Of a stretch of 64,000 nucleotides of DNA, positions 1 through 63,300 are shown in pieces (the stretch's first letter is position 1; the number at the start of each line of letters is the position of its first letter). The notes under the pieces were generated by a model. The model saw nothing but the letters and a program-made list of their open reading frames with translations, did no database searches and was not told the origin of the DNA. The stretch spans positions 21,486 through 85,485 of the forward strand of contig WTXG01000157.1 in assembly GCA_022496185.1 (NCBI GenBank), given 5' to 3'. Source of the DNA: Multifurca ochricompacta. Its lineage: Eukaryota > Basidiomycota > Agaricomycetes > Russulales > Russulaceae. The translations under genes and the position numbers were made by a program.

Positions 1-690
1 AGCCTGGCCCTGTTGAGCCAGGCTTGTTGTAGATCCCGGACCCACAGCGTCGGGTGCCGCAGATGTGGCTGACTAGTGCCGGACTAATGTCAGTGGACTC
101 GCGCTGACCAGTGCACGTCACACAGCAACGCCCCGCTGAGCATTACACAGCGAATACTTCTGCCCAGAGACAAAACCCTCTAGCTACTGTGTAAATACTA
201 TAGTAGTGTGGCCTACTTGTATCAAGCCCAAGCATCATGGGGGTGACTACCCATGCCTTGTTCTAGACCCTAAACTCTACCAGCGGGTGGCTAAACCCAG
301 CTTACGGATCGAGCCAAGCATTGACCAGACCTAAAGCCTCAAGCCTTCTGGGCAAGTGGCCTACTAAAACTATCTATGGGACAAAGACCCAGCTACAACT
401 ATGAACACTATTTACTTAGGGCACACATGAGGAGCTTAAGGTGTTTCACCCACTAAGGGTCCCTCGTCACCTTTTGCAAGAACCCTTAAGAAAGGGCTAG
501 CCAAACAGATCAAGGTGGGCACATAAAGCGCACCACCTTGTGGACAGTTAAGGGCAAGTAGACGAAAGAGAAGCTCACAAGGAAAAGTTATTGGGAATGA
601 ACTTTTGAAGCTTTGTTGAGCTTGAAAGATTTGTTGGACTGTGATCAAAGAAAGGAGTGCCAGATCAGTAAAGAGCAGCAGGGCCCATAA
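1..690 (-). mobile_element. copia-1 leader (5' untranslated region), truncated by window edge
   Basis: Read on the minus strand from 690 to 1, this continues the copia-1 LTR at 8016-8508 once the chromovirus E1 (691-8008) and its CATAA target duplication are removed; the rejoined junction restores the primer binding site GGTTATGGGCCC. It matches by eye the leader after the copia-1 LTR at 51697-52105 over about 400 nt, for example around the shared GGGTTCTTGCAAAAGGTGA. No open frame is convincing; a minus frame at 436-768 crosses the E1 junction and is fortuitous. The coding part of this element would lie left of the window. Confidence 0.75.
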
Positions 691-1318
691 TGTCACAGCA
701 AGGTGTGGTGCTGTGTCGAAGTTCGAGGTTCGAGGTTGTCTGTCAGTGCTACAAGAGCCTTCTATCAAGTCAAGGTTCCAAGCTAGGTCAAGTTGTGCCG
801 GTCAAAGGGGGCACACGCGCGAGACGAAGTCGAGCAGTGACACTAAGTCCTGCTGCAAGTTTCAAGGGGTCGAAGTTCCTTCAAGGCGCAGCTTAAAGGT
901 TTCAAGTGGAAGGTGTTCTCAGTCAAGTAATGTGAGTCCCAGTACACCTGTATTGCTACAGAAGAACAGACTTAATGTCTTGTCCTTTCTACTAGGGTCT
1001 TTATATACATGCATGCTGGTAGGGAGACTATTCTGGTAGTTACTAGAGCTTTCACTAGACAGTCTAATGGTTGTACAGTAGAATGTCCCAGAATGATATA
1101 GATGGTGGAGGGGTTACGCCCTCTACTACTGATCAGTAAGCAGATGAGTAAGATCCTCAGTAAGCAATCAGTCAGCAGTGTAAATGATAAGTCATAAGTC
1201 CTTTATCAGCACGTCATGTGGTAAGAGTAGCATATGGAAAGAAAAGAAAAGACAAACAGCAAAGCAAACAACAAGTCACATGTCCTTGACCCTTGTACCA
1301 GCCTAGGGAACCGTCACA
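691..1318 (-). repeat. E1 3' LTR (628 bp)
   Basis: Identical to 7381-8008 apart from one A/G difference in the tract AAAGCAAAC[A/G]ACAAG. On the minus strand it starts TGTGACGG and ends TGTGACA. A TATATAA box lies at 1007-1001 (minus). About 32 nt downstream is TTAAGTCTGTTCTT (975-962), the likely 5' end of the RNA. Confidence 0.95.
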
Positions 1319-1330
1319 TTACCCCCTTTG
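1319..1330 (-). other. E1 polypurine tract
   Basis: Directly inside the 3' LTR, the minus strand reads CAAAGGGGGTAA before the LTR's TGTGACGG. This purine run at the 3' LTR boundary is the expected plus-strand primer of a Ty3/gypsy element. Confidence 0.8.
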
Positions 1331-1359
1331 TAGGTCCCTGTCTGACCCCAGACAGTTGG

Positions 1360-2550
1360 TCAGTCACCCCGAGGTTGATCAGCATCGAGTGGTGGTAGAC
1401 GGCGTGTGCGGCGGCGATGAGGGAGATGTCGACTTCCTGGTCCACCTGCCTGCAGGACTGCACGCAGCTCAGGGTGTGGTGCAAAGCGGGCTGCTTGAGT
1501 GGGGGGAATGGCGCGTGAGGGGGCGAAGGCATACGTGAGGTGGGGGAAGAGTTGGTAGTACAGGTCATTTCTTGACATGGCATGCCTGGCAGAGTGGATG
1601 GCCTGTTGGGCTTGGTCCGCGCGTCGTCGCCAGTGGGCAAGGTTACGTCGAGCTTCATCCAGATGGTAGGTCGCGTAGCGGAAGTGGGTGACCTCAGCCC
1701 AGGCTCCAGGGTCATGCAGGTTGTCCAGCGCCACATTAACTAGTGGGGTATAGGTCTGGTTGTCGTCAAAGAGTCGCTGTTGATGGAGGGATAGGAGGGG
1801 GTTGGGTCCATGTGCGAAGCGGTAGTAGGTGGTGGCATAGAGTGGGGCATCGGTTATGGGATGACGCACTCCCATAGTGAAGTAGATGCGGGGGTCAGCA
1901 CAGTGGTAATCGAAGGCAACCCACCTAGCAACATCAAGGCGGCCTGTGTTATCTGCTATTCGGTGTGGGATGAAGGAGGGGGAGTGTACATGGTTGTGGT
2001 GGAAAGGGGGGCCTGGTGAATCAAAGTCAGAACTTAGACCATGGACCTCTCGTTGTGTTTGCGTGACGAGCTCCTCGTGAGGTAGTTGGGAGAAGTCCGG
2101 GGTAGTGGGGCGGTAGACAAGAGTAGGATCGTCGGCTGGGGGTTCAGGGGTTTGTAGCCTAGCACGAGCTTCCTCCAGTAGAAGTAGTACCCTGTTGCGT
2201 ATGTCCTCCTCCAGTGATAGGTTTGTAGCTGTAAGGGTTATGGCTTGAGTAAGATTGGTGGTGGGATTGTCGGTCATCGTAAATGGGGTTTGGGGACGTG
2301 GTGGAGAGGGAATAGGTGATGTGGTTGGCGTAGGTGGAAGAGTGGGAGCATCCTGTGGTCGTCTTAGTGCTGCTTTGGTGGCAGCATCTAGGGCAACAGA
2401 GCGGGTGGCCTCAAAGACTGCAGGATCATCAATAGGGGATGGAGCTCGTCCAGTGAGGGGGTGGCGAAAACGAGAAGTGGACATCCTTGGGGTGATTCTG
2501 TAGAACTTTCGTTCTTGTGTGAGGCGAGCTGGGCGTTTTATACAAGCCAT
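1360..2550 (-). CDS. E1 third ORF downstream of pol, function unknown
   Basis: An intact 396-codon frame between pol and the 3' LTR. The first Met is at 2550; a second Met (MSTSRF) at 2484 could be the true start. The N-terminal third is rich in Pro, Thr and Ser, a central part contains an Arg/Ala-rich helical stretch that may form a coiled coil, and the C-terminus is basic (HLPHRRRTRRLPP). I see no signal peptide or membrane segment, so it is not a recognisable envelope. No CCHC knuckle is present, unlike the third ORFs of E0 and E2, which occupy the same place and have nearly the same length. It is in frame with pol, separated by TAA and by a TGA shortly before the Met. I do not recognise the protein. 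Confidence 0.7.
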   Translation of the reverse strand: MACIKRPARLTQERKFYRITPRMSTSRFRHPLTGRAPSPIDDPAVFEATRSVALDAATKAALRRPQDAPTLPPTPTTSPIPSPPRPQTPFTMTDNPTTNLTQAITLTATNLSLEEDIRNRVLLLLEEARARLQTPEPPADDPTLVYRPTTPDFSQLPHEELVTQTQREVHGLSSDFDSPGPPFHHNHVHSPSFIPHRIADNTGRLDVARWVAFDYHCADPRIYFTMGVRHPITDAPLYATTYYRFAHGPNPLLSLHQQRLFDDNQTYTPLVNVALDNLHDPGAWAEVTHFRYATYHLDEARRNLAHWRRRADQAQQAIHSARHAMSRNDLYYQLFPHLTYAFAPSRAIPPTQAARFAPHPELRAVLQAGGPGSRHLPHRRRTRRLPPLDADQPRGD

Positions 2551-2623
2551 TTGTCAAAGGAGGGAGAGAAGAAAAAAAAGATGGGGATAAAAAAAAAAAA
2601 AAAAAAAAGGGTTGGGGATGGGA

Positions 2624-2639
2624 TCACCCTCCTTTTAAG
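2624..2639 (-). promoter_or_regulatory. Purine-rich context at E1 pol stop codon
   Basis: The minus strand around the pol stop reads CTTAAAAGGAGGGTGA, with TAA as the pol terminator. E2 has GTTAAAAGGGGGAC at the same place (14423-14411). The third ORF follows in the same frame in both elements. The tract could be a readthrough or reinitiation context or an internal polypurine tract; the sequence does not decide. Confidence 0.4.
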
Positions 2640-5600
2640 AGTGGCAGTGACCCTGACGCCTAGATAAGGAGTTATAGTATTGTTTGATAAGGTCAGGGGC
2701 ATGGCAGTCGTCGTTGTTTACCCAGGAATTGTCACTCGTGGGATATCCTTTCCAGCTGACAAGAAATTGCAGGTTCTGGGAGCGCCCATGGAGTCGATGA
2801 TCTAAGATGGCCTCTACTTCATATTCTTCGTCATTGTTGACAATGTCAGGTGGAGGTCTTAAGAAGTTTGGGCCATGTGCATCTGTTTCTTTGTAAGGGG
2901 ACAGAAGATCAACGTGGAAAACATTGTGGATCTTCATATGGGGTGGCAGAGATAATCTATAGGCCACTGGAGAGATTTGGTCTAAGATCCGGAATGGGCC
3001 ATGCCGGCGCGGGGCGAGTTTTGTTGAGGGGAAGTTTGTCTTGATGTTGCGACCTTCGAGCCAGACCTGTGAACCGACGGGGAACTCCGGATAGGATGGG
3101 CGTGTAGCGTGTGAACGGAAGGCCGCTTCGGCTCGCATGCGGGCGTGTCGTAGACTGTTTAGGCGGTTGTCTAGGCGAGGGACGTCCGTGTCGGATAATT
3201 CTGCTTTCCAATCCAGTGAAACGCCGTGAAGTAGTGCGTGTGGAGACAACTTAGTTTGATCGTGTGTCCAGGAATTATGGACATATTCGGCAAGCGGGAG
3301 GAAGTCGGCCCACTGATGTTGATCGTTGCCGACCCAGAGGCAGAGGTATTGTTCTAACCATAAATTCATTCGCTTGCTTGCTCCGTCCGTGCGAGGGTGA
3401 AATGCTGTGGATAGGTTCTGTTGGATCTGGAGGGTAGTCGCTAGTGCTCGAGAGAATTGAGAAGTGAAGCGCGGATCGCGATCTGAAATGATACGGCGCG
3501 GGACGCCGAATAGTGGGAATACGTGTCAATAATAAAGTGTCGCAATTCCTTCACCCGTGATGTCTTTCGAGCACGGAATGAATTTAGCCGCTTTTGAACA
3601 TCCTTGATCCACAATGGTTAGTACTGCGTCGTAGCAACCCGAGACAGGGAGATCCGTGATGAGGTCCATAGCAATGTATTGGAATGGCCCCGCGGACGCC
3701 GGTACATCTAGTGGGAAGAGCGGAACTTTCTTTGTCAGTCTAGGCTTATTTTCTTGGCAGAGCGCACACCCACAAATGTATTCGCGTACGAAGTCCGTAA
3801 GTCCTGGACCTTCGTAGTCTTGCTGAATTTTTCTGATTGTTTTATCAATGCCGGGGTGTCCCGCTAAGACATGATCATGATGCTGGTGCAGAATGTGCTG
3901 TCGTTCGGGCAAAGTTTGGGGAAACGGGAGTTTATTGGTTCTGGCTACTTTGACAAATAGCGCCGGTGGTAACATGGTGACTGCTTCGTTGTCATTATCG
4001 CCGTGTTCGGCGTCGGGTCTACGCGATAGCATGTCGGCTACTGTGTGGAGTTTGCCAGGGACATGTTCGAGAGAGAAGTCAAAGTCCGCTAATTCCTGAA
4101 GCCACCGTGCTTGGCGTCGATTGAGTTTTTGCGGTTCTTTAAAATATTGTAAATTATTATGATCGGTGCGCACTTGTACCTGGTCTTGGGCTCCCAGAAG
4201 GTATTGTCGCCATGTTCGGAAGGCGACCATAATTGCGAACAGTTCTCGATCGTAAATGTCCCAATTTCGTTGGGTGGCGTCTAATGTTTTAGAAAGATAT
4301 GCGATGGGATGCAGTCGTCCGTCGTGGTCTTTCTGGCTAAGCGTTGCTCCGATTGCGAACCCTGAGGCGTCTGTATCGACGATGAAAGGTTTGGTGAAAT
4401 CTGGTTGGGCGAGGACGGGTTGTGAAGTCACCCGTTGTTTTAGAGTGTCGAAGGCGTTTTGTTCATCAGTTGTCCACTTCCATGGATTCTTCACACTAGT
4501 GAGAGCGTTCAGGGGTGCTGCAATTTTACTGAAGCCTTGTATAAACCGTCTATAGAACTGACAGAATCCAAGGAATGATCTGACTTCCTTAACCGTGGTC
4601 GGGGCCTTCCAGGTCGTGATACCTTCAACTTTTACCGGGTCCATATGAACTCGATCCCCTTCTAGGATTAAGCCGAGGTACTCAATTCGTGTTTGTTCGA
4701 AGGCACATTTTTCTGGTTTAAGATACAGATCGAGTTTATTGAGTTTGTCCAAGATGTGGTGGACTTTAGACCGGTGGTTTACGGGATCGGAGTCCGTATG
4801 TATTAGAATGTCGTCCATATACACCGTAAACCAGGCCTTTCCCGAAGCATCGTGTTCATCCAATTCTTCGCAGAATTCTGCGTTCATCATGGTTTGAAAT
4901 GTTGCTGGAGAGTTGGTTAGTCCGAAAAACATTACGTTAGGCTCATAGAGGCCGCGATTAGTTTTGAAAGCCGCCTTCCAACGATCTTCTGGTATGATCC
5001 GCACGTTGTTGTAGCCCCAGCGGATATCCATTTTGGTGAATAGAGTGCTCCCTCGTACGCGATCGATAAGCTCAGGTATGAGGGGTAATGGATATGTATT
5101 TCTGATGGTCCAACTGTTGAGCTTTTGGTAATCCTGGACGGGACATAGCTTCCCGTCTTTCTTCTTTATGAAGAAGAAGGGGGATGCATAGGGTGATTTG
5201 GATTCGGTAATATATCCCTTCTGTAAATGCTCATCTAGGAATTTATTGAGTGCTTCCTGTTCACCCGGTCCTAATGGGTAGATCTTGCAATCTAGCGTAG
5301 CAGGTGCTTCTGGTTTTAGTTTGATTTTGTGATCCCAGATTCGTGCCGCCGGGAATCGTTGTGCCTCTTGGTCGCTAAAGACTTTTTGATGCCGATGATA
5401 TTCTTTCGGAACGATCTGGTCCCAAGTCCGCTCTGTCGAGTCTTTGGCTTTGATCGCTAATTCTTGTGCTATATTTAGACGTTTAAGTCGACTGTTGGGT
5501 AGGTTGAACGTGAGTGATTGGTTGAGGGTTCCCGTTGTCCAGTCAATATTCGGGTTATTTGCGGCAAGCCAGGGGTATCCTAGAATCATTTCGTCTGAGC

Positions 5601-5928
5601 CAATAGATGCAACATAGAAGTGATGATTCTGTTGTTTGTTATTAGTCGTGACTTTGAGATCTACACATCGTGTGATAGTGTGTGTTTGATTGGGTGATCC
5701 GTCTGCGTTCTGGAGTTTTTTTGGAATAGTTAATCGTTTCATGGGGAGGCGATGTTTAACGACCGTTCGATAGTTGATGAAGTTTTCGGTTGCACCGCTA
5801 TCAACAAGTGCTTGTATGTGGGCCTTATTTGTCACGTCATGTAAGGAAACAGATACTTTCATTGACTTTAGAGATGATCTATATACATGATGTGAGATTA
5901 TCGCTCGAATGTAGGCCGTTTCATTCAA
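2635..5928 (-). pseudogene. E1 pol polyprotein, one internal TGA and altered integrase Glu
   Basis: One continuous frame of about 1098 codons apart from TGA at 3526-3528. From the N-terminus: aspartic protease (LVDSGATENFI), reverse transcriptase (FTKMDIRWGYNN, YMDDILI), RNase H (DTDASGFAIGATLS), integrase H-H-C-C finger (HDHVLAGHPGID, CGCALCQENK), integrase core with Asp in AMDLITDLP and SDRDPRF, and a C-terminal chromodomain (EYEVEAILDHR, LVSWKGYPTSDNSW). The TGA stands where related elements have a residue after LYY, consistent with CGA changed to TGA. The third catalytic residue is Lys (DGASKRMN) where E2 has Glu (DGQSERTN). Pol lies in the -1 frame relative to gag and overlaps its TGA, so it may be made by frameshift or reinitiation. 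The listed 5' end is only the open-frame limit (TTG); the first in-frame Met is residue 23. Confidence 0.93.
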
Positions 5929-7088
5929 GCGATGTAAAAATCCTCGTCGCCACTAAATTTCTCCTGGAGTTTCTGGCGCTGTTCATCCATCATAGTCCTA
6001 AGAGCCGTAGCAAGCGCGTCGAGATCGACTGTCAGGGTGTTTGACGCGTTAGTGGAGGCAGGCGCCTTTGCGGGTACCGTCGCCGTTGTGGGTGTTTCGG
6101 TGATTGTGGCAGCGCGAGCCGGTGTGGGAGCATTCGCACGTGGTTTCTTATTCGGGCAGTCTTGGACCAAATGTCCTCGCCTACCGCATTCGAAACATCG
6201 GCCTTCCTTTTTGTATTGCTCTTTCTCTTCGACTGTTACAGCTTTTTTTATGACTTCGGGGATCGAGACATCGTGATCACGTCGTCGATAGAATGTGAAT
6301 TTATTGCCACGCGGTGGTGTATTGGTTGTGGGTCTCATGCCAAGGGCATCTTTACTGTATAACCAATTAGCGTGATGTTTCCAAGCAGATGCTGCTGCTT
6401 TGTCAAAGGTTTTGGGCTGATCAAATAATAACATTGTTTGAACGAGACGTGTGGGGAGACCTCGGTGGAAGTACTGCCGAGCGGCCGGATCATCGATATG
6501 AAGTTCTGCCCTTGTGGCTAGCGTGCGAAATTTGGCGATATAGTCATCAATATTGGCATCGCGCATTTGTAATCGGTCTAGCGCGCGTAGTGCCTTTTGT
6601 CCTGCCACTACGTCGGCCCATGCTTCTCGGAAGATTTGTTTGAATCCGGCCCAAATGTATGGGACTCGAATGTTCCCTTCTTTGATGTCAGTCAGCCACT
6701 TGATTTGGTCCACTACCCATCGGTCTACCCTGGGTCCTCGTATCAATCCCAAGGTGTAAGCCACTCTGGTTCTTTCGTTCTGGACTGTGGCCATGGTTTC
6801 ATTCAAACTGAAGAATAATTCGAGTTTGGCCAACCAATCCATGGCCGTGTCGCGGTCCCCTTCGAAGAAGGATGGTGGTACTCCTGTCATGGTTCCACTT
6901 CCTTGATTTACTGTTCCTGCCCCCAGGGTAGGAGGGCCTAAGGGTGGTTCGTCGGGATTTCTGCCCATGGCTCGGGTGGTCGCAGTGGATCTCTCTTCGG
7001 GACTTCGTTCAGGACGACTGGGATGCGATTCGACAACGTCTTCCTCCGCGGCCTGTCGTGCTTGTCTAGTATTCGGTCTGGCTGCCAT
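5925..7088 (-). CDS. E1 gag (capsid/nucleocapsid)
   Basis: 387 codons from the first Met. A Ty3/gypsy capsid-like region spans roughly residues 75-240 (FFEGDRDTAMDWLAKLELFF, YIAKFRTLATRA). A single CCHC knuckle, CFECGRRGHLVQDC, follows near residue 300, then an Ala/Thr/Pro-rich linker and a C-terminal helix. The protein should form the cytoplasmic virus-like particle and bind the RNA. The same frame stays open for about 85 codons upstream of the Met (to near 7345) with protein-like sequence but no ATG, so a non-AUG or lost start further upstream is possible. Confidence 0.9.
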   Translation of the reverse strand: MAARPNTRQARQAAEEDVVESHPSRPERSPEERSTATTRAMGRNPDEPPLGPPTLGAGTVNQGSGTMTGVPPSFFEGDRDTAMDWLAKLELFFSLNETMATVQNERTRVAYTLGLIRGPRVDRWVVDQIKWLTDIKEGNIRVPYIWAGFKQIFREAWADVVAGQKALRALDRLQMRDANIDDYIAKFRTLATRAELHIDDPAARQYFHRGLPTRLVQTMLLFDQPKTFDKAAASAWKHHANWLYSKDALGMRPTTNTPPRGNKFTFYRRRDHDVSIPEVIKKAVTVEEKEQYKKEGRCFECGRRGHLVQDCPNKKPRANAPTPARAATITETPTTATVPAKAPASTNASNTLTVDLDALATALRTMMDEQRQKLQEKFSGDEDFYIA

Positions 7089-7365
7089 TATTTGTGGGGT
7101 GGTGGTCCTAGTTTCTATGTCGATGGTATCGTCTGTTGCGGCAAGTAATGCAAATTGGTTGTGGAGGTCAAAGGGTAAGTCACCTCTTTCTCTGGGTTCT
7201 GATTCTTCGGTCGACAGGTATCTTCGTGGAGATGTTTCGTCGAAGGACGTTCGTTCGGACGGTGGGGTTCTGGGCTCGCGTGTTGAAGACGTCGCGATCG
7301 GGTGTCGGGCAAGGGACGCGTCGTCGTCGCCTTGCAGTTCTGGTGAGTTCTTTTGTTAAGTTCTG

Positions 7366-7379
7366 TTAAGTCTGTTCTT
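7366..7379 (-). other. E1 self-primer binding site
   Basis: Immediately after the 5' LTR the minus strand reads AAGAACAGACTTAA (7379-7366). This is the exact complement of TTAAGTCTGTTCTT in the LTR (7665-7652), about 32 nt below the TATA box and so close to the expected RNA 5' end. No tRNA-type primer site is seen. This matches the self-priming of Tf1, whose RNA 5' end folds back onto the PBS over 11 nt; here the match is 14 nt. Confidence 0.75.
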
Positions 7380-7380
7380 A

Positions 7381-8008
7381 TGTCACAGCAAGGTGTGGTG
7401 CTGTGTCGAAGTTCGAGGTTCGAGGTTGTCTGTCAGTGCTACAAGAGCCTTCTATCAAGTCAAGGTTCCAAGCTAGGTCAAGTTGTGCCGGTCAAAGGGG
7501 GCACACGCGCGAGACGAAGTCGAGCAGTGACACTAAGTCCTGCTGCAAGTTTCAAGGGGTCGAAGTTCCTTCAAGGCGCAGCTTAAAGGTTTCAAGTGGA
7601 AGGTGTTCTCAGTCAAGTAATGTGAGTCCCAGTACACCTGTATTGCTACAGAAGAACAGACTTAATGTCTTGTCCTTTCTACTAGGGTCTTTATATACAT
7701 GCATGCTGGTAGGGAGACTATTCTGGTAGTTACTAGAGCTTTCACTAGACAGTCTAATGGTTGTACAGTAGAATGTCCCAGAATGATATAGATGGTGGAG
7801 GGGTTACGCCCTCTACTACTGATCAGTAAGCAGATGAGTAAGATCCTCAGTAAGCAATCAGTCAGCAGTGTAAATGATAAGTCATAAGTCCTTTATCAGC
7901 ACGTCATGTGGTAAGAGTAGCATATGGAAAGAAAAGAAAAGACAAACAGCAAAGCAAACGACAAGTCACATGTCCTTGACCCTTGTACCAGCCTAGGGAA
8001 CCGTCACA
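7381..8008 (-). repeat. E1 5' LTR (628 bp)
   Basis: Partner of 691-1318 with a single difference, indicating a recent insertion. It contains the TATATAA promoter at 7697-7691 (minus). Confidence 0.95.
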
Positions 8009-8015
8009 CATAACC

Positions 8016-8508
8016 TGATGAACAGGCATGTGCGCACAGTGATACTGACTGTGGTTAGCGTGTGAGGCTAGATGAACAAGTTATACTTCAGAGGAAGAAA
8101 ACTCTATTATACTATACTACACACCTAGATGAACAAGTTATCTACACGAGATGGTTAGCCAAAGGTAAAGTAGTAAGTAAGAGAGATGGGACTTACACTT
8201 CAGAGGAAGAAAACTCTGAAGTGTAAGAGACGAAATAGACCACCTTATATACTACAAGAGGATGGTCTGTGTGCAATGGAAAATGCTAGAATGTACTACT
8301 GAGGGACAAAGGCCATTGGCCAGTGAGATATCACATGCTACACAGGATTACCAAGGTACATCAGTCAGCTGCTGCGCATCGCGAGAAAGAAAGTAATAAT
8401 GATATAGTAAAAAGTCCGAAACTCCGAATCTATATCTAATCTAATCTTGCACAGCTTAGACCCTAACCTAGATGCCTGAAGCACCTCAAGACACATGCCG
8501 TGTCAACA
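8016..8508 (-). repeat. copia-1 5' LTR, long form with internal intron and spliced repeat
   Basis: 493 bp, minus orientation, from TGTTGACACGG at 8508 to TTCATCA at 8016, followed by GGTTATG and the E1 insertion. Downstream of a TATATAAG box there is a hairpin segment ending CTCTGAAGT. Next come an intron-like GTAAGT...GTGTAG at 8196-8142 (55 nt) and then ATAACTTGTTCATCTAG. Further on the hairpin recurs joined directly to ATAACTTGTTCATCTAG, i.e. with the intron removed. This LTR's private variant TTCATCTAG is present in both copies. Confidence 0.85.
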
Positions 8509-10796: not shown

Positions 10797-11302
10797 TGTC
10801 AAACAATCATGCTGCTGGTTATACTGACTGTGGTTAGCAGTTTAGGCTAGAAAGACAAGTATACTTCAGAGGTTGAAGAAACTCTGTATTACTATTCTAC
10901 TGACCTAGAAAGACAAGTATCTACAAGAGATGGTTAGTCAAAGGTAAGGTAGAAAGTATAGTAGAACTTACACTTCAGAGGTTGAAGAAACTCTGAAGTG
11001 AAAGAGATGAAACAGACACCCTTATATACCCATGGGGGCCAGGGAAATGGTCTGTGTGCAATGGGAATAAGTCCACAAGTGCTGGACAATAAACAGAGAG
11101 GGATAAAGGCCATTGGCCAAAGAGATATCACATGCTTACTGCGCATTACTAAGTCCATCACTAATCAGCTGAGTAAGGTGAGAAAGAAATGTAATAAAGA
11201 TAACATAAAAAGTCCGATACTCCGAAATCTAATCTAATCTTATCTACAGCTGAAGCGAACCTTAGATGCCTGAAGCATCTCCAGACATGTCCTGTGTCAA
11301 CA
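10797..11302 (-). repeat. Solo copia-1 LTR, long form, TSD ATTAA
   Basis: 506 bp, flanked by ATTAA at 10792-10796 and 11303-11307, inserted in the E0 third ORF. Intron-like segment at 10971-10921 (51 nt, GTAAGT...TTGTAG). The unspliced and spliced copies share this LTR's own exon-2 variant ATACTTGTCTTTCTAG and hairpin variant GTTTCTTCAACCTC. Confidence 0.92.
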
Positions 11303-12074: not shown

Positions 12075-12474
12075 TGTTGAACACAGGACATGTTCGGTGA
12101 TGCTTCAGGCATCAGGAGATTAGATTAGCTACTTTGTGGATTAGATTAGATTCCGGAGTTTCGGACTTTTTACTATATCCTTATTACTTTCTTTCTCACA
12201 CTCTGCAGTAGCTGACTGATGTACCTTAGTAATGATGTACAAGCATGTGATTCCTTACTGGCCAATGGCCTTATCCCCTCTTGTTTATTGTTTGGACTTT
12301 GTCCGGCACTTGTGGACTTATTCCCAGTGCACAGACCATCCCTTGGATAGTATATAAGGGTGTCTGTTTTGTCCTCTACACTTCAGAGTTTCTTCCATCT
12401 CTGAAGTAACTTGTCTTTCTAGCCTAACATGCTAACCTCACAGTCAGTATGCTGCGCCTCATGCCTGTTCAACA
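12075..12474 (+). repeat. copia-1 LTR, short form without intron
   Basis: 400 bp from TGTTGAACAC to CTGTTCAACA. It has a TATATAAGGG box and one hairpin (ACTTCAGAG...CTCTGAAGT) joined directly to AACTTGTCTTTCTAG, with no intron-containing copy. The length difference from long forms (about 107 bp) equals one unit. Flanks (GATGG, GGTGT) do not match, so this is not a clean solo LTR. Confidence 0.8.
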
Positions 12475-27175: not shown

Positions 27176-27584
27176 TGTTGAGCCGGTAACGGATCAGAGT
27201 TGGCCGGACCGGATCAGAGGTGACCGGAGTTGCCGGTGCAAGACGGAGTTAAGTGGACATTGTAATATACCTACTGACATTCACTCGTTTACTATGATTA
27301 CTTATGATTAAAGATACAATCCTTTATGACCATAGCACAGCACACTCTTTACAGTATTTAAGGACATTATTTCTGTAGTGTACACTTCAGTTTTGACCAT
27401 TCACAACTGAAGTGAGTATTTACTTAGATTATCTTTACCACGCGTATAGCTAACATTACTCGCGTAGTTATCTTGCTACCCGTTTAGGTAAAGACTAATT
27501 AATATACAGTTTTGACCATTCACAACTGAATTATCTTGCTACCCGTTTAGGTAGCGCTTATCTAACCTCAGCTGCGTTTCCACA
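27176..27584 (+). repeat. Solo copia-type LTR (third family), intron plus spliced repeat, TSD CATTT
   Basis: 409 bp from TGTTGAGCC to TTTCCACA, flanked by CATTT at 27171-27175 and 27585-27589. After a TATTTAAGG box comes a hairpin (ACTTCAGTT...AACTGAAGT). An intron-like segment, 27412-27467 (56 nt, GTGAGT...GCTAAC...GCGTAG), precedes TTATCTTGCTACCCG. A second unit from about 27508 repeats the hairpin joined directly to TTATCTTGCTACCCG. Sequence-wise this is unlike copia-1, yet the architecture is the same. Confidence 0.88.
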
Positions 27585-50654: not shown

Positions 50655-50995
50655 TGTTGGAAGTGCAGCCATAGCATGCAATCAATTGATACCAGAGATG
50701 GCAGCCTGAGTCTGATCACTACTATATCAATGCAATGCAATATTCAGAGCATGTGGGTTGTGCAATTTTCCTTTATCATAAAGACTCAGTAGCATAGTTA
50801 GAAACCTCAGTCTTTCTATTCCAAAGACTGAGGTCAGTACTCTCTGTGTTACAGCTACATTATTACTTTACTGATTCATTGTGTAGCTATGCATTTATAG
50901 GTATTAACAAATCATATAGTCTTTCTATTCCAAAGACTGAGCTATGCATTTATAGCTCACTACAGATTATGAGACCTGAGTTGCTCTAAATCACA
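50655..50995 (+). repeat. copia-2 5' LTR, with intron and spliced repeat
   Basis: 341 bp from TGTTGGAAGTGC to TAAATCACA. It contains a perfect hairpin CCTCAGTCTTT...AAAGACTGAGG and the intron-like segment 50833-50886 (54 nt, GTCAGT...ACTGATT...GTGTAG), followed by CTATGCATTTATAG. At 50918-50955 the hairpin recurs joined directly to CTATGCATTTATAG. Followed by a short leader and the gag start at 51027. Confidence 0.85.
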
Positions 50996-51295: not shown

Positions 51296-52105
51296 TGTTG
51301 ACACAAGACGTGTCTGGAGATGCTTCAGGCATCTAGGGATCACTTAAAGCTGTAGATAAGATTAGATTAGGTTCTGGTGTTTCAGACTTTTTACAATATC
51401 TTTATTACATTTCTTTCTCACATTACTCAGCTGATTAGTGATGTACTTAGTAATGCGCAGTAAGCACATGATATCTCTTTAGCCAATGGCCTTTATCCCT
51501 CATTGTTTATTATCTGGCACTTGTGGACTTATTCCCAGTGCACACAGACCATTTCCCCTGGCCCCCATGGGTATATAAGGGTGTCTGTTTTGTCCTCTAC
51601 ACTTCAGAGTTCTTCTTCCTCTGAAGTTTAACTTGTCTTTTAGCCTTACACACTACTAACCACAGTCAGTATAACCAGCAGCATGATTGTTTGACAGGTT
51701 ATGGGCCCTGACACTCATACTGATCTGTAATTCCCTTTTGTTCACATTACAGCCCAACTCACTCTTGCACACCAAGCTCACAAAAGCTTCAAAGTCTTTC
51801 CCACCAGCTTCTTCCTGTGAGCTTTCCTATTTACTGTCTGTGCACCTTAACACCCCACAGGATGACACAGTTTACTGCTCATCCTGAACTGTTTGGCTAG
51901 CCCTTAAAGGGTTCTTGCAAAAGGTGATGAGGGACCCTAAGTGGGTGAAACACCTTAAGCTCCTTGAGTGCGCACTAGGTATTAGTAACTTCATAGTTGT
52001 AGCTGGGTTTTCATCCCATAGATAGTCTTAGTAGGCCTATAGCCAGAAGCTTGTGGCTTTAAGTCCAGTCAATGCTTGGCTCTGTCTGTAAGCCAGGTTT
52101 AGCTA
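51296..52105 (+). mobile_element. copia-1 5' LTR (short form), primer site and leader
   Basis: LTR 51296-51696 (401 bp, TGTTGACACAAG...GTTTGACA) with one hairpin joined directly to TTAACTTGTCTTTTAG, i.e. intron-less. The primer binding site GGTTATGGGCCC lies at 51697-51708, followed by leader sequence homologous to 690-1 (minus). The leader breaks off near 52105 without coding sequence. Confidence 0.8.
51697..51708 (+). other. copia-1 primer binding site (half tRNA-iMet type)
   Basis: GGTTATGGGCCC is complementary, with one mismatch, to the anticodon stem-loop of eukaryotic initiator tRNA-Met (GGGCUCAUAACC). Priming by an internal tRNA-iMet fragment is known for Drosophila copia and yeast Ty5. 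Confidence 0.65.
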
Positions 52106-52837: not shown

Positions 52838-53510
52838 TGATAAACAGGCATGTGCATGCAGTGATACTGACTGTTGGATGTTAGCGTGTGAGGCTAGAGA
52901 GACAAGTTATACTTCAGAGGAGAAGAAAACTCTATTATACTATACTACACACCTAGAGAGACAAGTTATCTACATGAGACGGTTAGTCAAAGGTAAGGTA
53001 GTAAGTAAGAGAGATGAGACTTACACTTCAGAGGAGAAGAAAACTCTGAAGTGTAAGAGACGAAACAGACACCCTTATATACTACTCAAGGGATGGTCTG
53101 TGCGCAATGGAATGCGCTAGAATATCTACTGAGGGACAAAGGCCATTGGCCAGTGAGATATCACATGCTATACAGGATTACTAAGGTACATCAGTCAGCT
53201 GCTGCGCATCGCGAGAAAGAAAGTAATAATGATATAGTAAAAAGTCCGAAACTCCGAATCTTTATCTAATCTAATCTTGCACAGCTTAGACCCTAACCTA
53301 GATGCCTGAAGCACCTCAAGACACATGCTGTGTCAACATCCCTCCATGATTAAGGCATCAGGTTAAAATGAATTAAATGAGCATATTGCCAATTAAGAGG
53401 CGTGAGAGTGAGTCGATGAGAGGAGAGGAGTGATCTGAAGTGTGTTATGCAAACTGAAACGCATTCAGTCACACACCTCTTGCATCACTCTCGAGGTCGA
53501 CAATATGGAC
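52838..53510 (-). mobile_element. copia-1 3' LTR (long form) with 3' untranslated region
   Basis: LTR 53338-52838 (501 bp) preceded in sense direction by 53510-53339, which matches the 3' untranslated region of the copia-1 element at 60597-60335. Intron-like segment at 53024-52970 (55 nt); its own exon-2 variant ATAACTTGTCTCTCTAG occurs in both the unspliced and spliced units. The rest of the element is cut off by the gypsy LTR at 53511. Confidence 0.82.
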
Positions 53511-54096: not shown

Positions 54097-55372
54097 AAGA
54101 AGATACACAACGCATTTATTTGTGGCTGCTTAAGATCCCTCAATGGCTCTTGTTTTATGTTCAGAAGATTAAAATAATTCATTATTCCATTATTATTTTA
54201 TTATTCTGCTTTCAATTTTATACAAGCACAACTAAAATCCAGTATACAGAGATGATTAGATAGGATGTTATAGAACATTGATGAATAGCCTGTCAGATAA
54301 CTGCACAGAATGCAAAAAAAATTAATGAACACATAGACATTGGCAGGGGTAACCCCTGGATAATTGTTTTGATACCTGGGTTACCCATAAAATGAAACAT
54401 GTGCAAGTTCTTTACTTGCATCACACATTTTGGACAATTGGCTCGGGCCATCCTGGTCAAGGAGATACGCACTCAGACACAATGCATTCATTTATGGCTA
54501 CTCAAGATCCCTCAAAGATTCCTATTTTATGTTCATAAGATTAAGATAATTTATTATTCCATTTTTATTTTATTATTCTGGTTTCAATTTTATACGAGCG
54601 TGACTGATCTTTGCATTTCTGTGCATTTCGGATAAATGGCCTGGGCCATCCCGGTCAAGGAGATAAGCACTTGGACACAACGTGTTCATTTATGGCTACT
54701 CAAGATTCCTCAAAAATTGTTGTTTTATGTTCAGAAGATTAAAAGGATCTTTTATTTACATTATTATTTTATTATTCTAGTTTCATTTCATACAAGCACA
54801 ACTGTCCTGGTCCCTGGATGCACAATTCTGCGCGTTTAAGTCAACCTTCCTTAATAGGAAGGAGGTCAGACCACCATGCAATGCAATGTAGTCGCTGCCC
54901 CATGCAGCTTGTAGATACACACGGGCCTTGTTTCAATAAAGTAATTTGATAATTAAATTATAGAATAGTCTAAAGTAGTCTAGAGAGTATTTAAGATAGT
55001 GCCAGACCAGCAGAATTGGTCACACATTAATAAAACAGATGCATCATGATTTTCAAGAATGTAGATCACTGATAACAGTTTTATTTTACATCACACTGTT
55101 GATCTGCTTTGATATTTTGTAGGATAACACTAGAACATATTAACATTCACCCTGTATCATAAATCAGACGAGATCATATATTTTTGTGGCTGCAGATGTG
55201 TTTTATCTTAGAAATTCTACTGATCTTGTCAATGCATAATCAGTGCCTATACCCACCAAACCTGCCGCACAGGTACGGGTTTCCATGGGTTGGGAGCCAT
55301 ATACCCATACCTGTACCTGGCAAAACCCGTGGCGCTTACCCGTGCGGGTATGAAAACCCTTGACAATCACTA
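54097..55372. mobile_element. hAT-iii element, 5' truncated
   Basis: Homologous to 20240-21498, with the same subunits and the same TACCC-rich right end, terminating CCCTTGACAATCACTA. It disrupts the copia-2 pol at 55373. Frames here (WLLKIPQ repeated three times) come from the repeated subunits and are not called as genes. Confidence 0.8.
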
Positions 55373-56859
55373 CCTGCCAGGAAGAAATGCAATCATTCAA
55401 AAGCATGGGGGTCTACGAGGTTGTCACGCGCCCAAATGGACATAAAGTTGTTGGCAGTAAATGGGTGTTCCATACGAAGTGTGGACCCACAGGGGAAGTC
55501 TTGAGGCACAAAGCTCGCATTGTGGCACAGGGTTTCACACAAGTCAAAGGCATCAACTACAACGAGACTTTTGTGCCCATTGTGAAGTTTGCATCTCTTT
55601 GCGCAATTCTTGCATTGGCAATGCAGTTTGATCTTGAAGTACACCAAATGGATGTGAAGTCAGCATATCTTAATGGTGAGCTCAAGGAAGAAATATATAT
55701 GGAACCACCCCCGGGTTTCAACATCCCTGAGGGCATGGTACTCCAACTAGTCAAGGCAGTGTACGGCACCAAGCAAGGCGGCCGTGTATGGTACCAAGAT
55801 ATCAGAGCGAAGTTAGAAAGCATTGGATATCAACACACTGAGGCTGACCATGCCATGTTCATCCACCACAGAAACAATACCCCATCCATCATCACCCTCT
55901 ATGTTGATGATATCACAATGGTATCTAAAACTCTGGAGGAAATAAATGAGGATAAGGAGGCACTCAAAAGGGTCTATGAAATGACAGACCTTGGTGAGCT
56001 TACCTGGATTCTTGGGATGCATGTCACTCATGACTGGAAAGCAGGTTGGATGGCACTCTCCCAGAAAAAATACATTGAAGAAATTTTGGCACATTACAGA
56101 AAATCTGACATTTGACCCATCAGCACCCCTGCTCTCGCAAATGAGCACTTAATCAAACTTGACTCACCCACTGTTGATGTCAAGGTGTACCAGCAAGCCA
56201 TTGGTGCCTTGATGTATCCCATGCTCAGCACCTGCCTGGACCTCGCATACACAGTCGCTGCACTTGGACAACATGCTGCAAATCCTGGAGAGGAACATCA
56301 GTGAGCCCTAGATTGCACATTCCATTACCTTAGAGCCACAAGCGGCATGAAGCTAGTCTTCACACACAGTGCACCTAAAGGAACTGAGCTACAAGGTTAT
56401 GTTGATGCTGATTGGGCTAGCGACGTGAATGATCAAAAATTGACTTTGGGTTTTGTCTTCATTCTAGCTGGAGGTGTGATAAGTTGGAGCTCGAAGAAGC
56501 AACCTTTGATCATGCTATCAAGCACTGAGGCAGAGTATATTGCAGGAGCCCATGCTGCAAAGGAGGCTGTCTGGTTGTGTCAGCTACTAGCTGAAATCCA
56601 CCAGAAGGATGACTTACCTACTACCCTTCACATGGACAACCAATCTGCAATATTGGTCGCCCAAAACCCTGAATTCCATGATCACACCAAACACATCGAG
56701 ATCAGACATCACTTCTTGAGGCACATGCATGAAAACCAAGAGATCGAATTGAAGTATGTACCAACAGGAGAACAACTTGCAGATGTGTTGATGAAGGGCC
56801 TCATGCAGGAGAAACATGAGAAGTTCACTGAAGCGATGGGAATTCAGCATGCAGGCTGA
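55373..56859 (+). pseudogene. copia-2 reverse transcriptase/RNase H, two TGA stops
   Basis: One frame from the hAT-iii junction to 56859, interrupted by TGA at 56113-56115 and near 56302. Reverse transcriptase: VGSKWVFHTKCGPTGEV, FDLEVHQMDVKSAYLNGEL, LYVDDITMV. RNase H: GYVDADWASD, LSSTEAEYIAG, HMDNQSAILVAQNPEFHDHT, GEQLADVLMKGL. The gag-to-integrase part has been lost to insertions. Confidence 0.9.
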
Positions 56860-56964: not shown

Positions 56965-57471
56965 TGTTGAACACAGAAGATGTTCGGTGATGCTTCAGGC
57001 ATCAGGTGATTAGATTAGCTACTTTGTAGATTAGATTAGATTCCGGAGTTTCGGACTTTTACTATATCTTTATTACTTTCTTTCTCACATTCCGCAGTAG
57101 CTGACTGATGCACCATGTAACATGTGATTTCTGTAGTGGCCAATGGCCTTTCTCCCTCATGTTTATTGTTTGGACTTTGTCCGGCACTTGTGGACTTATT
57201 CCCAGTGCACAGACCATCCCTTGGATAGTATATAAGGGTGTCTGTTTCGTCCTCTACACTTCAGAGTTTTCTTCACCTCTGAAGTGTAAGTCCTTTCTAC
57301 ATTACTTCCTACTTATACCTTTGACTAACTGCTCTCTGTAGTTAACTTGTCTTCTAGGTCAGTAGTATAGTAATATCCAGAGTTTTCTTCACCTCTGAAG
57401 TTTAACTTGTCTTCTAGCCTAACCTGCTAACACTTTACAGTCAGTATGCTGTGCCATATGCCTGTTCGACA
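56965..57471 (+). repeat. copia-1 LTR, long form
   Basis: 507 bp from TGTTGAACAC to CTGTTCGACA. The hairpin unit with intron 57286-57341 (56 nt, GTAAGT...GACTAAC...CTGTAG) joins TTAACTTGTCTTCTAG. The spliced unit from about 57378 joins the hairpin directly to TTAACTTGTCTTCTAG. Flanks GTATC and AGAGA do not match. Confidence 0.85.
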
Positions 57472-57805
57472 AGAGAAACTCAGGTCTCATAATCTGTAAG
57501 AGCTAGAAAAGCGAGTAGCTCAGTCTTTGGAACAGAAAGACTATATTGCTAGGTAATACCTAGAAAAGCGAGTAGCTACACAAAGAATTAGTAAAATGCA
57601 ATGTAGCTACAAAGAAAATAATACTGACCTCAGTCTTTGGAACAGAAAGACTGAGGATGCTAACTACACTGGTAGTCCTATAATATAGTAAGAAATTTGC
57701 ATGATACAATACCTTGTGCATTGTGTAGAATGGCCTCAATGTGATCAATCCCAGGCTGCCATCTCCAGTATCAATGTGGCTGTGTGCTGTGGCTGTATTC
57801 TAACA
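57472..57805 (-). repeat. copia-2 LTR in inverted orientation
   Basis: Inverse of the 50655-50995 type, ending GTATTCTAACA. It lacks the last few bases of the LTR at the 57472 junction. Intron-like segment at 57628-57576 (53 nt). Its exon 2 is CTACTCGCTTTTCTAG, different from the other copia-2 LTR but identical in its own unspliced and spliced units. Confidence 0.82.
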
Positions 57806-59826: not shown

Positions 59827-60334
59827 TGTCAAACAATCATGCTGCTGGTTATACTGACTGTGGTTAGTAGTGGTGAGGCTAGAAAGACAAGTATACTTCA
59901 GAGGTTGAAGAAACTCTATATTAACTATACTACTGACCTAGAAAGACAAGTATCTACAAGAGACATTAGTCAAAGGAAAGTAGAAGGTATAGTAAGACTT
60001 ACACTTCAGAGGTTGAAGAAACTCTGAAGTGAAAGAGAAGAGACAGACACCCTTATATACCCATGGGGGCCAGGGGAAATGGTCTGTGCGCACTGGGAAT
60101 AAGTCCACAAGTGCCGGACAATAAACAGAGAGGGATAAAGGCCATTGGCCAAAGAGATATCACATGCTTACTGCACATTACTAAGTCCACCACTAATCAG
60201 CTGAGTAAGGTGAGAAAGAAATGTAATAAAGATAACATAAAAAGTCCGATACTCCGGAATCTAATCTAATCTAATCTACAGCTGAAGCGAACCTTAGATG
60301 CCTGAAGCATCTCCAGACACATTCTGTGTCAACA
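59827..60334 (-). repeat. copia-1 3' LTR, long form
   Basis: 508 bp, ending at TGTTGACACAG (60334) after the polypurine-like ATGGAGGGA. Intron-like segment at 60002-59954 (49 nt, GTAAGT...TTGTAG). Exon 2, ATACTTGTCTTTCTAG, is identical in both units. Confidence 0.88.
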
Positions 60335-63300
60335 TCCCTCCATGGTGAAGGCATCGATCATAGATTGAAATGAGTTAAATGAGCACACCACTGTTCACAA
60401 TTGAATGAACATATCACCAGAGATCCAACTTCTCTAACTCTCAAGTGCGAGAAGGGCATGGTGTTCAGAGGCATATTGCAATGATTCGCTTATGCAAACT
60501 GAAACCATACACACATCTTGTGTCACTCTCGAGGTTGAGAACGTGCTCATGGTGGGAAAGTGAAACTGGTATACAAAGTCTCCAGATTCCAGCTCTTTCA
60601 TTCCAGCACTAGTCCAAATCCAGTTACCATAAGATCAAAAGATGATCTAGGCAGAGACTTTGTAAGGCCATCTGCCAGCATCTCTCCAGTGGGAGTTCGC
60701 ACCAAGTCAATCTGGTGTGATTCTACATACTCCCTAATGGCATGGTACTTTATTGGTATGTGCTTTGATCGCCTTCCTGTGACTGGGTTTAATGCAAGAT
60801 CTACTGCACCCTTATTGTCACAATGCAGTTGTATGGGTGAACTAACTTCATATCCCAACTCCTGCATGAACGTCCTATACCACACTGCCTGATTTGAAGC
60901 CTCAGCAAGGCTCATATACTTGGCTTCAGTGGTGGACTGTGCTACTGTCTTCTGCTTCCTGGAACACCAGCTAATGGCTCCATTAGCAAGGAAAAAGACA
61001 TAGCCTGAGGTGGAGTGGCGGTCCTCTTGATCTCCCCATGAGGAATCCGCAAAGCCATGAAGGCCAACTTCACCATTCCCTCCAGAATAGCGCAACTTGT
61101 AGTCTTTTGTAGCACATACTTTGCTAGTCGCATGTGCTGCTGGGAAGGGTTGGAAGCAAATTGACTGAGGCATGCAACAGTGAAACTAATGTCAAGTCTG
61201 CTTCCAATCTGCACCCAAAGCAGAGACCCCATTAACTGCTGATACCTCTTAATATCAGAGGTAGATGCCTGGTCTTCAAACTTGACCAAGTGAACATCCA
61301 CACCAGAGGGCAGAGGAGTATATACTGGGTTGGAATCCCCCATTCCAAACCTCTCAACTATTGAGGATACATAGGCTGTCTGGTCGATATCCAGTGTCTT
61401 GTTAGGACGGTCCCTGGTGATGTTAACTCCAAGGTATGACTGGATTTCGCCAAGATTGGTCATCTCATATTGACTAGATAGAGAGTCCTTCAGCCATTGG
61501 ATCTTCTTAGTGGAGGACCCAAGTATAGTGATGTCATCAACATATAGAATGACGAAAAGTGAACCATCCCCCTCTTGGTGATGATACACATATACTCCTG
61601 CATCAGAGTATGTCCAAGTAAAGCTCAGTTCATTAAGAACTGCATGGAATTGCAAGTTCCATGCTTGGGAAGCTTGTTTGAGGCCATACAGAGCCTTCTG
61701 TAGCCTACAAACCTTGGACTCTTGTCCAGCAACGATGAAACCAACAGGTTGCTCCATATAAATCTCCTCATCCAGGTCGCCATGTAGGAATGCCGATTTG
61801 ACATCCATCTGATGGATTTCCTGTCGAACAGGCATGAGGTGCAGCATACTGACTGTAAAGTTAGCGTGTGAGGCTAAAAGACAAGTTAGACTTCAGAGGT
61901 GAAGAAAACTCTGTTACTATACTACTGACCTAAAAGACAAGTTAGCTACAGAGAGCGGTTAGTCAAAGGTATAAGTAGGAAGTAATGTAGAAAGACTTAC
62001 ACTTCAGAGGTGAAGAAAACTCTGAAGTGTAGAGGACGAAACAGACACCCTTATAACTACTGAAGGGATGGTCTGTGCGCAATGGAATGCGCTAGAATGT
62101 ACTACTGAGGGACAAAGGCCATTGGCCAGTGAGATATCACATGCTATACAGGATTACTAAGGTACATCAGTCAGCTGCTGCGCATCGTGAGAAAGAAAGT
62201 AATAATGATATGGTAAAAAGTCTGAAACTCCAAATCAATATCTAATCTAATCTTTGCACAGCTTAGACCCTAACCTAGATGCCTGAAGCACCTCAAGACA
62301 CATGCCATGTCAACATTTCCCAATCCTCAAGTGCGGCCAATGCTAATAACAGTCTAAGAGACTCAAATCTGGTGACTGGGGAGAAAGTTTCATCGAAGTC
62401 CACCCCCTCTATTTGGGTGAACCCTTTTGCTACAAGCCTAGCACAAAAGCGTCCATCTGCTTTCAATTTAAAGACCCACTTGGACTTTACTGCCTTTCTA
62501 CCTTCAGGAAGGTCTTCAAGGTGCCACACTTTAAGTTTTTCTAAGGTGTCAATTCATATTGACATGCCTCAAGCCATTCACTGGCATTATCAGACTCCAT
62601 TGCTTCTTTAAATGTAAGAGGATCCCTGTAAGGCAATCCTGCAGCATTAAGTAGATCCATCTGACCAAGTCTGGAAGAACCCTGCATAAACTCTGCATTA
62701 TCCTCGTTGTAGAAGCGAGGATTCAGACGACGATTCCGATTGGGACATGCAGTATCCAAGTCTAAATCATCTTGGATTGCCCTATCTCGTCATTCAGAGC
62801 ATGGACTTGTCCTCTGAAAATTAGGTTGAGGAAGTCTGCCTGCAATTCTTTCTGATTTTCTAATTGCACAGGTTCTTTTGGGAGGGGAGGATGGTTCCAG
62901 AACTTGTGATGGAGGGGTCTGATATATAGTCTGAGGTTGTGTAGTGTCTATATTACGTGTGGGTGTGGTAGGCTTTGGTGGTAATTGAGGAGGTACGATG
63001 TCCTCCTGTTCCTCTTCTAGGTCTTCCTCATCTTGAGGAGCCTCAGGAACATGTGTAGCAGTTGCTGGTGGTGGTTGGACACTTCCACCAGGTAAAGTAA
63101 ATGAGCGACCTTCACTAGGTTGCTCTATGGATTTATCTGCTCTGTTGTCCTTTACAGAGCAGGATGGGAAGGATCTCTCATCAAAGGTAACATCTCATGA
63201 AAAGATGAGAGACTGGGTACGACTATCCCAAAGTGTATAGCCCTTAGAAGTGGGCTCATACCCGACAAAGACGGCTTCCCTGGCTTTGGGATCTAATTTG

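Follow-up and report, generated by a model that had tools for sequence, protein, structure and literature searches.

A copia-type LTR layout in Multifurca ochricompacta that may let two leader introns persist through copying of spliced RNA

The disappearance of an intron within a single cycle is the classic hallmark of an RNA intermediate, and sequence that a retroelement copies is not expected to retain introns. Elements with long terminal repeats (LTRs) that carry introns or produce spliced RNAs have been described, among them Ogre, EVADE and Cer1, and the portion of the source available to us presents the introns of Ogre and EVADE as serving subgenomic RNAs (PMC12786077). The same portion recounts the intron-marked Ty (TyH3) of 1985, whose spliced RNA was reverse transcribed and whose intron was lost on transposition, and we found in it no description of a mechanism that restores introns after a spliced template. 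Here we analyse copia-type LTRs in a 64,000-nucleotide (nt) stretch of the genome of the basidiomycete Multifurca ochricompacta (assembly GCA_022496185.1, contig WTXG01000157.1, forward-strand positions 21,486 to 85,485; hereafter the window). Like the intron-marked Ty, these LTRs appear to be reverse transcribed from spliced RNA; the Ty copy emerged without its intron, whereas this LTR appears to evade that loss. An earlier note on the same DNA had described intron-like gaps in three of the LTRs and knew of no published element built in this way. In a full-text literature search, judged mainly from result lists and with subscription papers mostly outside its reach, we recognised no description of the design. 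The terms "intron" and "splic" are also absent from the main text of two surveys of fungal LTR elements (PMC3248453 and PMC5445492).

The LTR from which the analysis started is a 507-nt copia LTR with TG...CA ends on the forward strand at 56965-57471, which has at least 43 matching places genome-wide and which we call A type. A TATA box (TATATAA, 57229-57235) lies approximately 30 nt 5' of the predicted start site, and a putative first exon, H1 (57263-57285), runs from that site, the A of a CAG, to the beginning of intron 1 (57286-57341, 56 nt, GTAAGT...GACTAAC...CTGTAG). Intron 1 is followed by a 16-nt microexon, E1 (57342-57357), with a 3' end of TAG, and then by a putative intron 2 (57358-57417, 60 nt, GTCAGT...TAG), which comprises a spacer (57358-57378), H2 (57379-57401) and E2 (57402-57417). 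U5 occupies the remainder (57418-57471). H2-E2 (57379-57417) has the sequence of spliced H1+E1, i.e., it is a joined copy of the two, and would be the landing site (3' R) for spliced strong-stop complementary DNA (cDNA). Copia LTRs of three types show the same order, U3, H1, intron 1, E1, intron 2 (spacer-H2-E2) and U5, and across the parsed copies intron 1 measures 49-57 nt, E1 14-20 nt and the spacer 16-23 nt. The structure itself is certain. The earlier note had placed the joined copy about 40 nt beyond intron 1, and it does start 37 nt after the end of 57286-57341; its limits are those of a repeat that starts at the A of CAG and ends at a second GT...TAG intron, which the note had missed. 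In the A type, H starts at the A of CAG approximately 30 nt past the TATA box, and this A is apparently the transcription start. H2 starts at the same A within a base, preceded by the spacer and not by the sequence found before H1.

Both strands of the window were scanned for two segments separated by a gap and then found joined downstream, without requiring GT-AG. Nine places were returned, all nine with GT-AG gaps, compared with one match in total in 20 shuffled windows (one strand each). Three types are represented among these nine LTRs: the A type, an S type (27176-27584) and a C2 type (50655-50964). They include the three cases given by the earlier note, at 57286-57341 (A), 50833-50886 (C2) and 27412-27467 (S), and six that it had not listed. 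A similar scan of the window together with genomic sites L001-L060 gave 222 matches, of which 81 were GT-AG; the listed non-GT-AG matches were tandem or short repeats at L003, L022, L026 and L048, and the listed GT-AG matches at L003 and L022 were tandem repeats as well.

L001-L060 were the best matches to design-bearing LTRs, and that set is biased towards the design. A separate sample of 60 sites was chosen by the primer-binding site (PBS) only, with the LTR ignored. The PBS next to the 5' LTR is GGTTATGGGCCC in the A and S types (379 sites) and GATTATGAGACC in the C2 type (44 sites); 40 sites came from the first 100 listed of the former and 20 from the latter, with some already-sampled sites left out. 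Searched without constraints, 50 of the 60 show the layout. In keeping with the earlier note's description of the gap as an intron, the best-scoring junction had GT and AG at its edges in 50/50 (31 unambiguous, 19 with two to three equally good positions), and branch-like CTAAC, CTGAT or CTAAT is visible. The gap shows GT, a branch site and AG and is removed exactly in a related sequence, and as such it looks like a spliceosomal intron. Among the ten sites without a layout call, L067 and L078 are collapsed (see below) and L065 and L081 are truncated LTRs; at the PBS sites L115 and L120 the layout is present with two mismatches in E, and the remaining four (L069, L073, L075 and L099) belong to two other families that lack the design. 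Genome-wide, an intact H1-donor motif occurs at 1423 A-type and 253 S-type places, and a reversed-pattern control for that motif found none.

Support for a second intron comes from the end of the repeat. GT stands directly 3' of E1 in 49 of 49 informative LTRs of the PBS sample and directly 3' of E2 in only 2 of 49, informative meaning that the two E copies share a terminal TAG at an equal offset (49 of the 50). Identity between the 12 nt that follow E1 and the 12 nt that follow E2 is 34%, so that the repeat ends sharply there. Because GT follows E1 and hardly ever E2, we read spacer-H2-E2 as a second intron, and on the simplest reading this intron begins directly after E1 and closes with the last base of E2; the fully spliced leader would therefore be H-E-U5. 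These GT statistics come only from scans without a GT requirement, as the parsing patterns used below imposed donor motifs, GT after E1 and C before H1.

If H2-E2 were rewritten in each cycle, H and E should differ between copies and agree within a copy. This was assessed in 116 parsed LTRs from the window and L001-L120 (58 from L001-L060, 49 from the PBS sample and 9 from the window), a set that includes 5'/3' pairs of single elements and is thus not wholly independent. E1 equals E2 in 63 of 71 A-type, 19 of 24 S-type and 12 of 21 C2-type copies, and H1 equals H2 in 69, 23 and 21, respectively; in these counts, re-cutting of boundaries had brought one copy each of A and S to E1=E2. Before these re-cuts, 35 E sequences were counted in the A type alone. 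When partners were permuted 2000 times, E matches reached at most 11 (A), 17 (S) and 10 (C2), compared with 62, 18 and 12 observed before re-cutting, and H matches at most 26 (A), 19 (S) and 16 (C2), compared with 65, 23 and 21 observed. For E, the A type thus gives a strong result and the C2 type a modest one, whereas the result in S, which has few E variants, is weak. All mismatches in C2 are C/T or A/G, as expected of decay after insertion. In one copy, L083, H1 and H2 both end in an unusual C. The last spacer base before H2 is mostly T or C (52 T and 14 C of 71 in A, 10 and 12 of 24 in S, 17 and 4 of 21 in C2), with C before H1 in those copies imposed by the search pattern; the C form may be a record of a start-site choice one base upstream.

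LTRs in which H is joined directly to E were found at 49 places (27 in A, 20 in S and 2 in C2), compared with the 1423 A and 253 S places that have an intact H1-donor. All of the 44 examined (27/27 A, 15/20 S and 2/2 C2) are without both introns, none retains the spacer and H2, and none has lost intron 1 alone. These collapsed copies were viewed with approximately 40 nt upstream of H, and their U3 was thus seen in part; two of them, L134 and L147, differ from the others upstream or within E. Two pairs were checked, and in each the 5' and 3' LTRs are both collapsed and a target-site duplication is present (ACCCA in one pair, GATTA in the other), which probably places the collapse during reverse transcription or in the parent and not in a later deletion within one LTR. 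The element with ACCCA ends in TTTAATA and not CA. Deletion after insertion is thus unlikely for these two pairs and possible for the rest. The other deletion form, H-intron 1-E-U5, was found at one place, L165, with a pattern that covers part of the A type. The LTRs L083 and L081 are chimeric or truncated with breakpoints at or beside the intron 1 donor. Four S-type copies (L166, L179, L181 and L184) are interrupted at almost the same point of the spacer, where a sequence common to them, TATAGTGGGG, takes over; it is perhaps a DNA transposon.

We consider it quite probable that these LTRs follow a two-intron, self-restoring cycle, the splicing and RNA ends of which we infer from the DNA. Transcription would begin at H1, and the leader from the 5' LTR (H1-intron 1-E1-spacer-H2-E2-U5) would lose intron 1 and spacer-H2-E2, leaving H-E-U5. 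Reverse transcriptase, primed at the PBS, would copy U5, E and H and stop at the cap, and the resulting strong-stop cDNA would be complementary to the H2-E2 of an unspliced 3' LTR and could anneal there. Extension from H2-E2 through the spacer, E1, intron 1, H1 and U3 would then give a new LTR that again has both introns, its H2-E2 freshly written from the parental H1+E1. Were the cDNA to land on H1 rather than H2, the product would be U3-H-E-U5 with both introns gone. That intron 1 is kept in the 3' LTR might be explained by a hairpin in read-through RNA that sequesters the 5' splice site of this intron.

Such a hairpin is apparent in the sequence. The bases immediately 5' of the start site are complementary to the donor and the adjoining end of H1, with 6-10 base pairs (bp) for 63 of the 66 A variants, 6-9 bp for 14 S variants and 4-5 bp for 11 C2 variants. 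In the A-type LTR of the window the structure (57255-57288) has a 12-bp stem when folded, and its right arm terminates three bases into the 5' splice site. Both arms are present only in RNA that reads through from upstream; RNA from the predicted start site is without the upstream arm. Across 40 distinct leader variants, mean fold energies with the upstream arm were -17.8 (A), -15.3 (S) and -16.6 kcal/mol (C2), compared with -2.7, -3.5 and -4.9 kcal/mol from the start site without it and with -6.2, -7.0 and -10.1 kcal/mol for shuffled arms, single shuffles of which went down to -14.3, -13.6 and -18.7. Donor G+1 was paired in 40/40 variants with the arm and in 6/40 without it, four of these six being S. 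In ensemble folding of longer contexts, the mean unpaired probability of donor positions +1 to +3 was lower with the arm: 0.10 compared with 0.21 without it in A (25 of 66 variants), 0.03 compared with 0.05 in S (14) and 0.36 compared with 0.70 in C2 (11), with a drop in 19 A, 8 S and 11 C2 variants. A role of the start-site hairpin as the switch between 5' and 3' LTR is plausible, with moderate support, and slightly favoured over its absence.

Several observations weigh against this cycle or parts of it. Ensemble folding in longer context gives mixed results in which donor masking is unclear: the unpaired probability over +1 to +6 went up in A and S, and a scrambled C2 arm gave 0.40, near the 0.36 of the real arm. 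Shuffled C2 arms also reach energies below the real mean (-18.7 compared with -16.6 kcal/mol), and the S donor G+1 is paired in four of five start-site RNAs too. The scheme leaves the retention of intron 2 in the 3' LTR unexplained, and polyadenylation before its acceptor would be a guess. For single LTRs, collapse by recombination between H1 and H2 is possible, and the collapsed copies are not independent (L131, L132, L140 and L142 share a flank, and L127/L128 and L137/L138 are pairs), so that the events number fewer than 44. Of 20 S-type places chosen for rare H variants and intended as a test of H1=H2, most were truncated or damaged: 12 were without H2, two had a damaged H2, two had one mismatch and four had H1=H2. 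Finally, the design is missing from two families (L069/L073 and L075/L099) that have the same PBS.

Other accounts of the joined copy have to be weighed against the two-intron cycle. Under the model suggested by the earlier note, splicing would be confined to intron 1, and strand transfer would place the spliced cDNA next to the unspliced copy. Its view of the gap as intron-like and of the second copy as resembling spliced-leader cDNA has held up, with strand transfer the likely step; what has not is the addition of a single-intron product in each cycle. Although such addition would yield an H2-E2 equal to spliced H1+E1, it predicts growing spacer-H-E arrays or losses of intron 1 alone, and we found no expanded array genome-wide with one exact pattern covering part of the A type and no intron-1-only loss among the 44 examined collapsed LTRs. 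It also leaves unaccounted for the GT after E1 in 49/49 and the end of the repeat there. With no expanded form from that one A-type pattern and no intron-1-only loss among the 44, we reject it as very improbable. If both introns are spliced, nothing need be added: the cDNA would fit the existing H2-E2, and the LTR would be rebuilt unchanged. Chance repeats or an assembly artefact are of negligible probability and are ruled out by the nine of nine GT-AG gaps compared with one match in 20 shuffles, by the 1423 A and 253 S motif places and by the empty reversed control.

Alternatively, H2-E2 could be a one-time duplication from spliced cDNA that has since been inherited ordinarily, homogenised by gene conversion or template switching and kept by selection. 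The layout is indeed common to the members of a type, and unspliced RNA would presumably also replicate faithfully through an ordinary long R. However, H and E both agree within copies despite an intron separating H1 from E1 and H2-E2 being continuous, the repeat ends coincide with the predicted start site and a splice site in three types, and, with 34% identity in the 12 nt past E1 and E2, homogenisation would have to stop at the exon ends. We regard this as unlikely, and as less likely again the possibility that the introns serve subgenomic mRNA only, on the pattern of spliced retroviral RNAs, with unspliced RNA as the genome and H2-E2 kept for, e.g., RNA packaging. PBS-free mRNAs are conceivable, as A-type leaders have branch-site-like and acceptor-like sequences soon after the PBS, but this accounts neither for H2-E2 tracking H1+E1 copy by copy nor for the examined by-products losing both introns. 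We lean towards the introns being replicated parts of the element, with spliced RNA made in each cycle, the introns restored and a start-site hairpin exposing the donor only in start-site RNA.

The elements carry an RVT_2 domain, TG...CA LTR ends, short target-site duplications (CATTT, ACCCA and GATTA) and a PBS, which we take to match the anticodon half of tRNA-Met, and by these features they are Ty1/copia LTR retrotransposons. Copia-type pol (RVT_2) lies beside the A type at L005, L012 and L014, beside the S type at L046 and L033 and beside the C2 type in the window (55354-56112, E-value 1.3e-64). The three types, called sequence-unrelated families by the earlier note, are not entirely unrelated: A and S have in common both the PBS and the CACTTC arm just 5' of the start site, and all three occur beside RVT_2 pol. 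The LTR at 56965-57471, called copia-1 by the same note, is not part of the element to which the upstream pol belongs. That pol runs into a C2-type 3' LTR from 56867, which the A-type LTR interrupts at 56965, and we therefore assign it, tentatively, to the C2 element whose 5' LTR lies at 50655-50964. The A-type LTR is without a target-site duplication and adjoins an inverted C2-type LTR (window 56965 and 57472); its site looks rearranged.

On the forward strand, the C2-type 5' LTR at 50655-50964, followed at 50965 by the PBS GATTATGAGACC, contains H1 (50809-50832), a 54-nt intron 1 (50833-50886), E1 (50887-50900) and a putative intron 2 (50901-50955) comprising a spacer (50901-50917), H2 (50918-50941) and E2 (50942-50955). 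Also on this strand, an S-type solo LTR (27176-27584), flanked on both sides by the target-site duplication CATTT, contains H1 (27389-27411), a 56-nt intron 1 (27412-27467), E1 (27468-27487) and a putative intron 2 (27488-27550) comprising a spacer (27488-27507), H2 (27508-27530) and E2 (27531-27550). Five further A-type LTRs with the full design lie on the minus strand, with intron 1 at 61946-62000, 59954-60002, 52970-53024, 10921-10971 and 8142-8196, as does a second C2-type LTR (intron 1 at 57576-57628) whose E is unlike that of the 50887 copy, yet with E1=E2. Two forward-strand A-type LTRs are collapsed to U3-H-E-U5: 51296-51696, which is followed by the PBS (H 51606-51627, E 51628-51643), and 12075-12474 (H 12385-12407, E 12408-12422). 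No layout match was found by the scan in the two gypsy LTR pairs of the window (690-1318/7380-8008 and 12515-13110/19421-20016). The gypsy element at 690-8008, on the minus strand, encodes a chromodomain integrase, and it is probably a recent insertion, as its LTRs are 99.8% identical over 629 nt. Neither an Rfam scan nor a tRNA scan of the window gave a match.

Additional splice-like signals occur in A-type 5' leaders, including those of L002, L004 and L129, where branch-like ACTGAC or ACTGAT and acceptor-like GATCAG or TTACAG stand approximately 20-40 nt past the PBS; A-type U5 often contains CTAAC...ACAGTCAGTAT. Further splicing past the PBS could remove it and give an mRNA that cannot be copied.

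The LTR described here appears to escape intron loss by its sequence layout alone, in a genome with more than 1,600 H1-donor motif places. If the cycle is as proposed, each insertion records its parental exons, and the choice of strand-transfer site, the choice of start site and splicing become readable from the genome. The hairpin is a concrete candidate for an RNA switch letting identical LTRs act differently at their two ends. The design also suggests how an element could satisfy its host's need for introns in expressed genes. A likely benefit would lie in mushroom genes sometimes depending on an intron to be expressed; in a study on the mushroom Armillaria, transgene expression required an intron (PMC4935854).

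Among known systems, Drosophila copia is primed by a half-tRNA. Half-tRNA-Met primers are also described, in the part of the source available, for some plant copia lineages, Osser and Bryco (PMC6317226). The present elements resemble these half-tRNA Ty1/copia elements, Drosophila copia, Osser and Bryco, in their RVT_2 pol, their TG...CA LTRs and a PBS directly after the 5' LTR. We know of no half-tRNA copia element with a two-intron leader and a joined exon copy in its LTR. Deltaretroviruses have their splice acceptors beyond the LTR, with unspliced RNA as the genome. In human T-cell leukaemia virus 1 (HTLV-1), the source as available describes splicing within the R of the LTR that removes leader sequence from some RNAs (PMC3434621). 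In contrast to HTLV-1, both putative acceptors here (the end of intron 1 and the end of E2) lie inside the LTR, which thus holds two complete introns, and the spliced leader is the apparent template. The start-site hairpin finds its closest parallel in human immunodeficiency virus 1 (HIV-1), in which, according to the available part of the source, a poly(A) hairpin represses polyadenylation on the 5' side (PMC2645353). In both, RNA structure would limit a signal present at two ends to one of them; unlike the HIV-1 hairpin, the one described here straddles the transcription start and would control access to a 5' splice site rather than polyadenylation.
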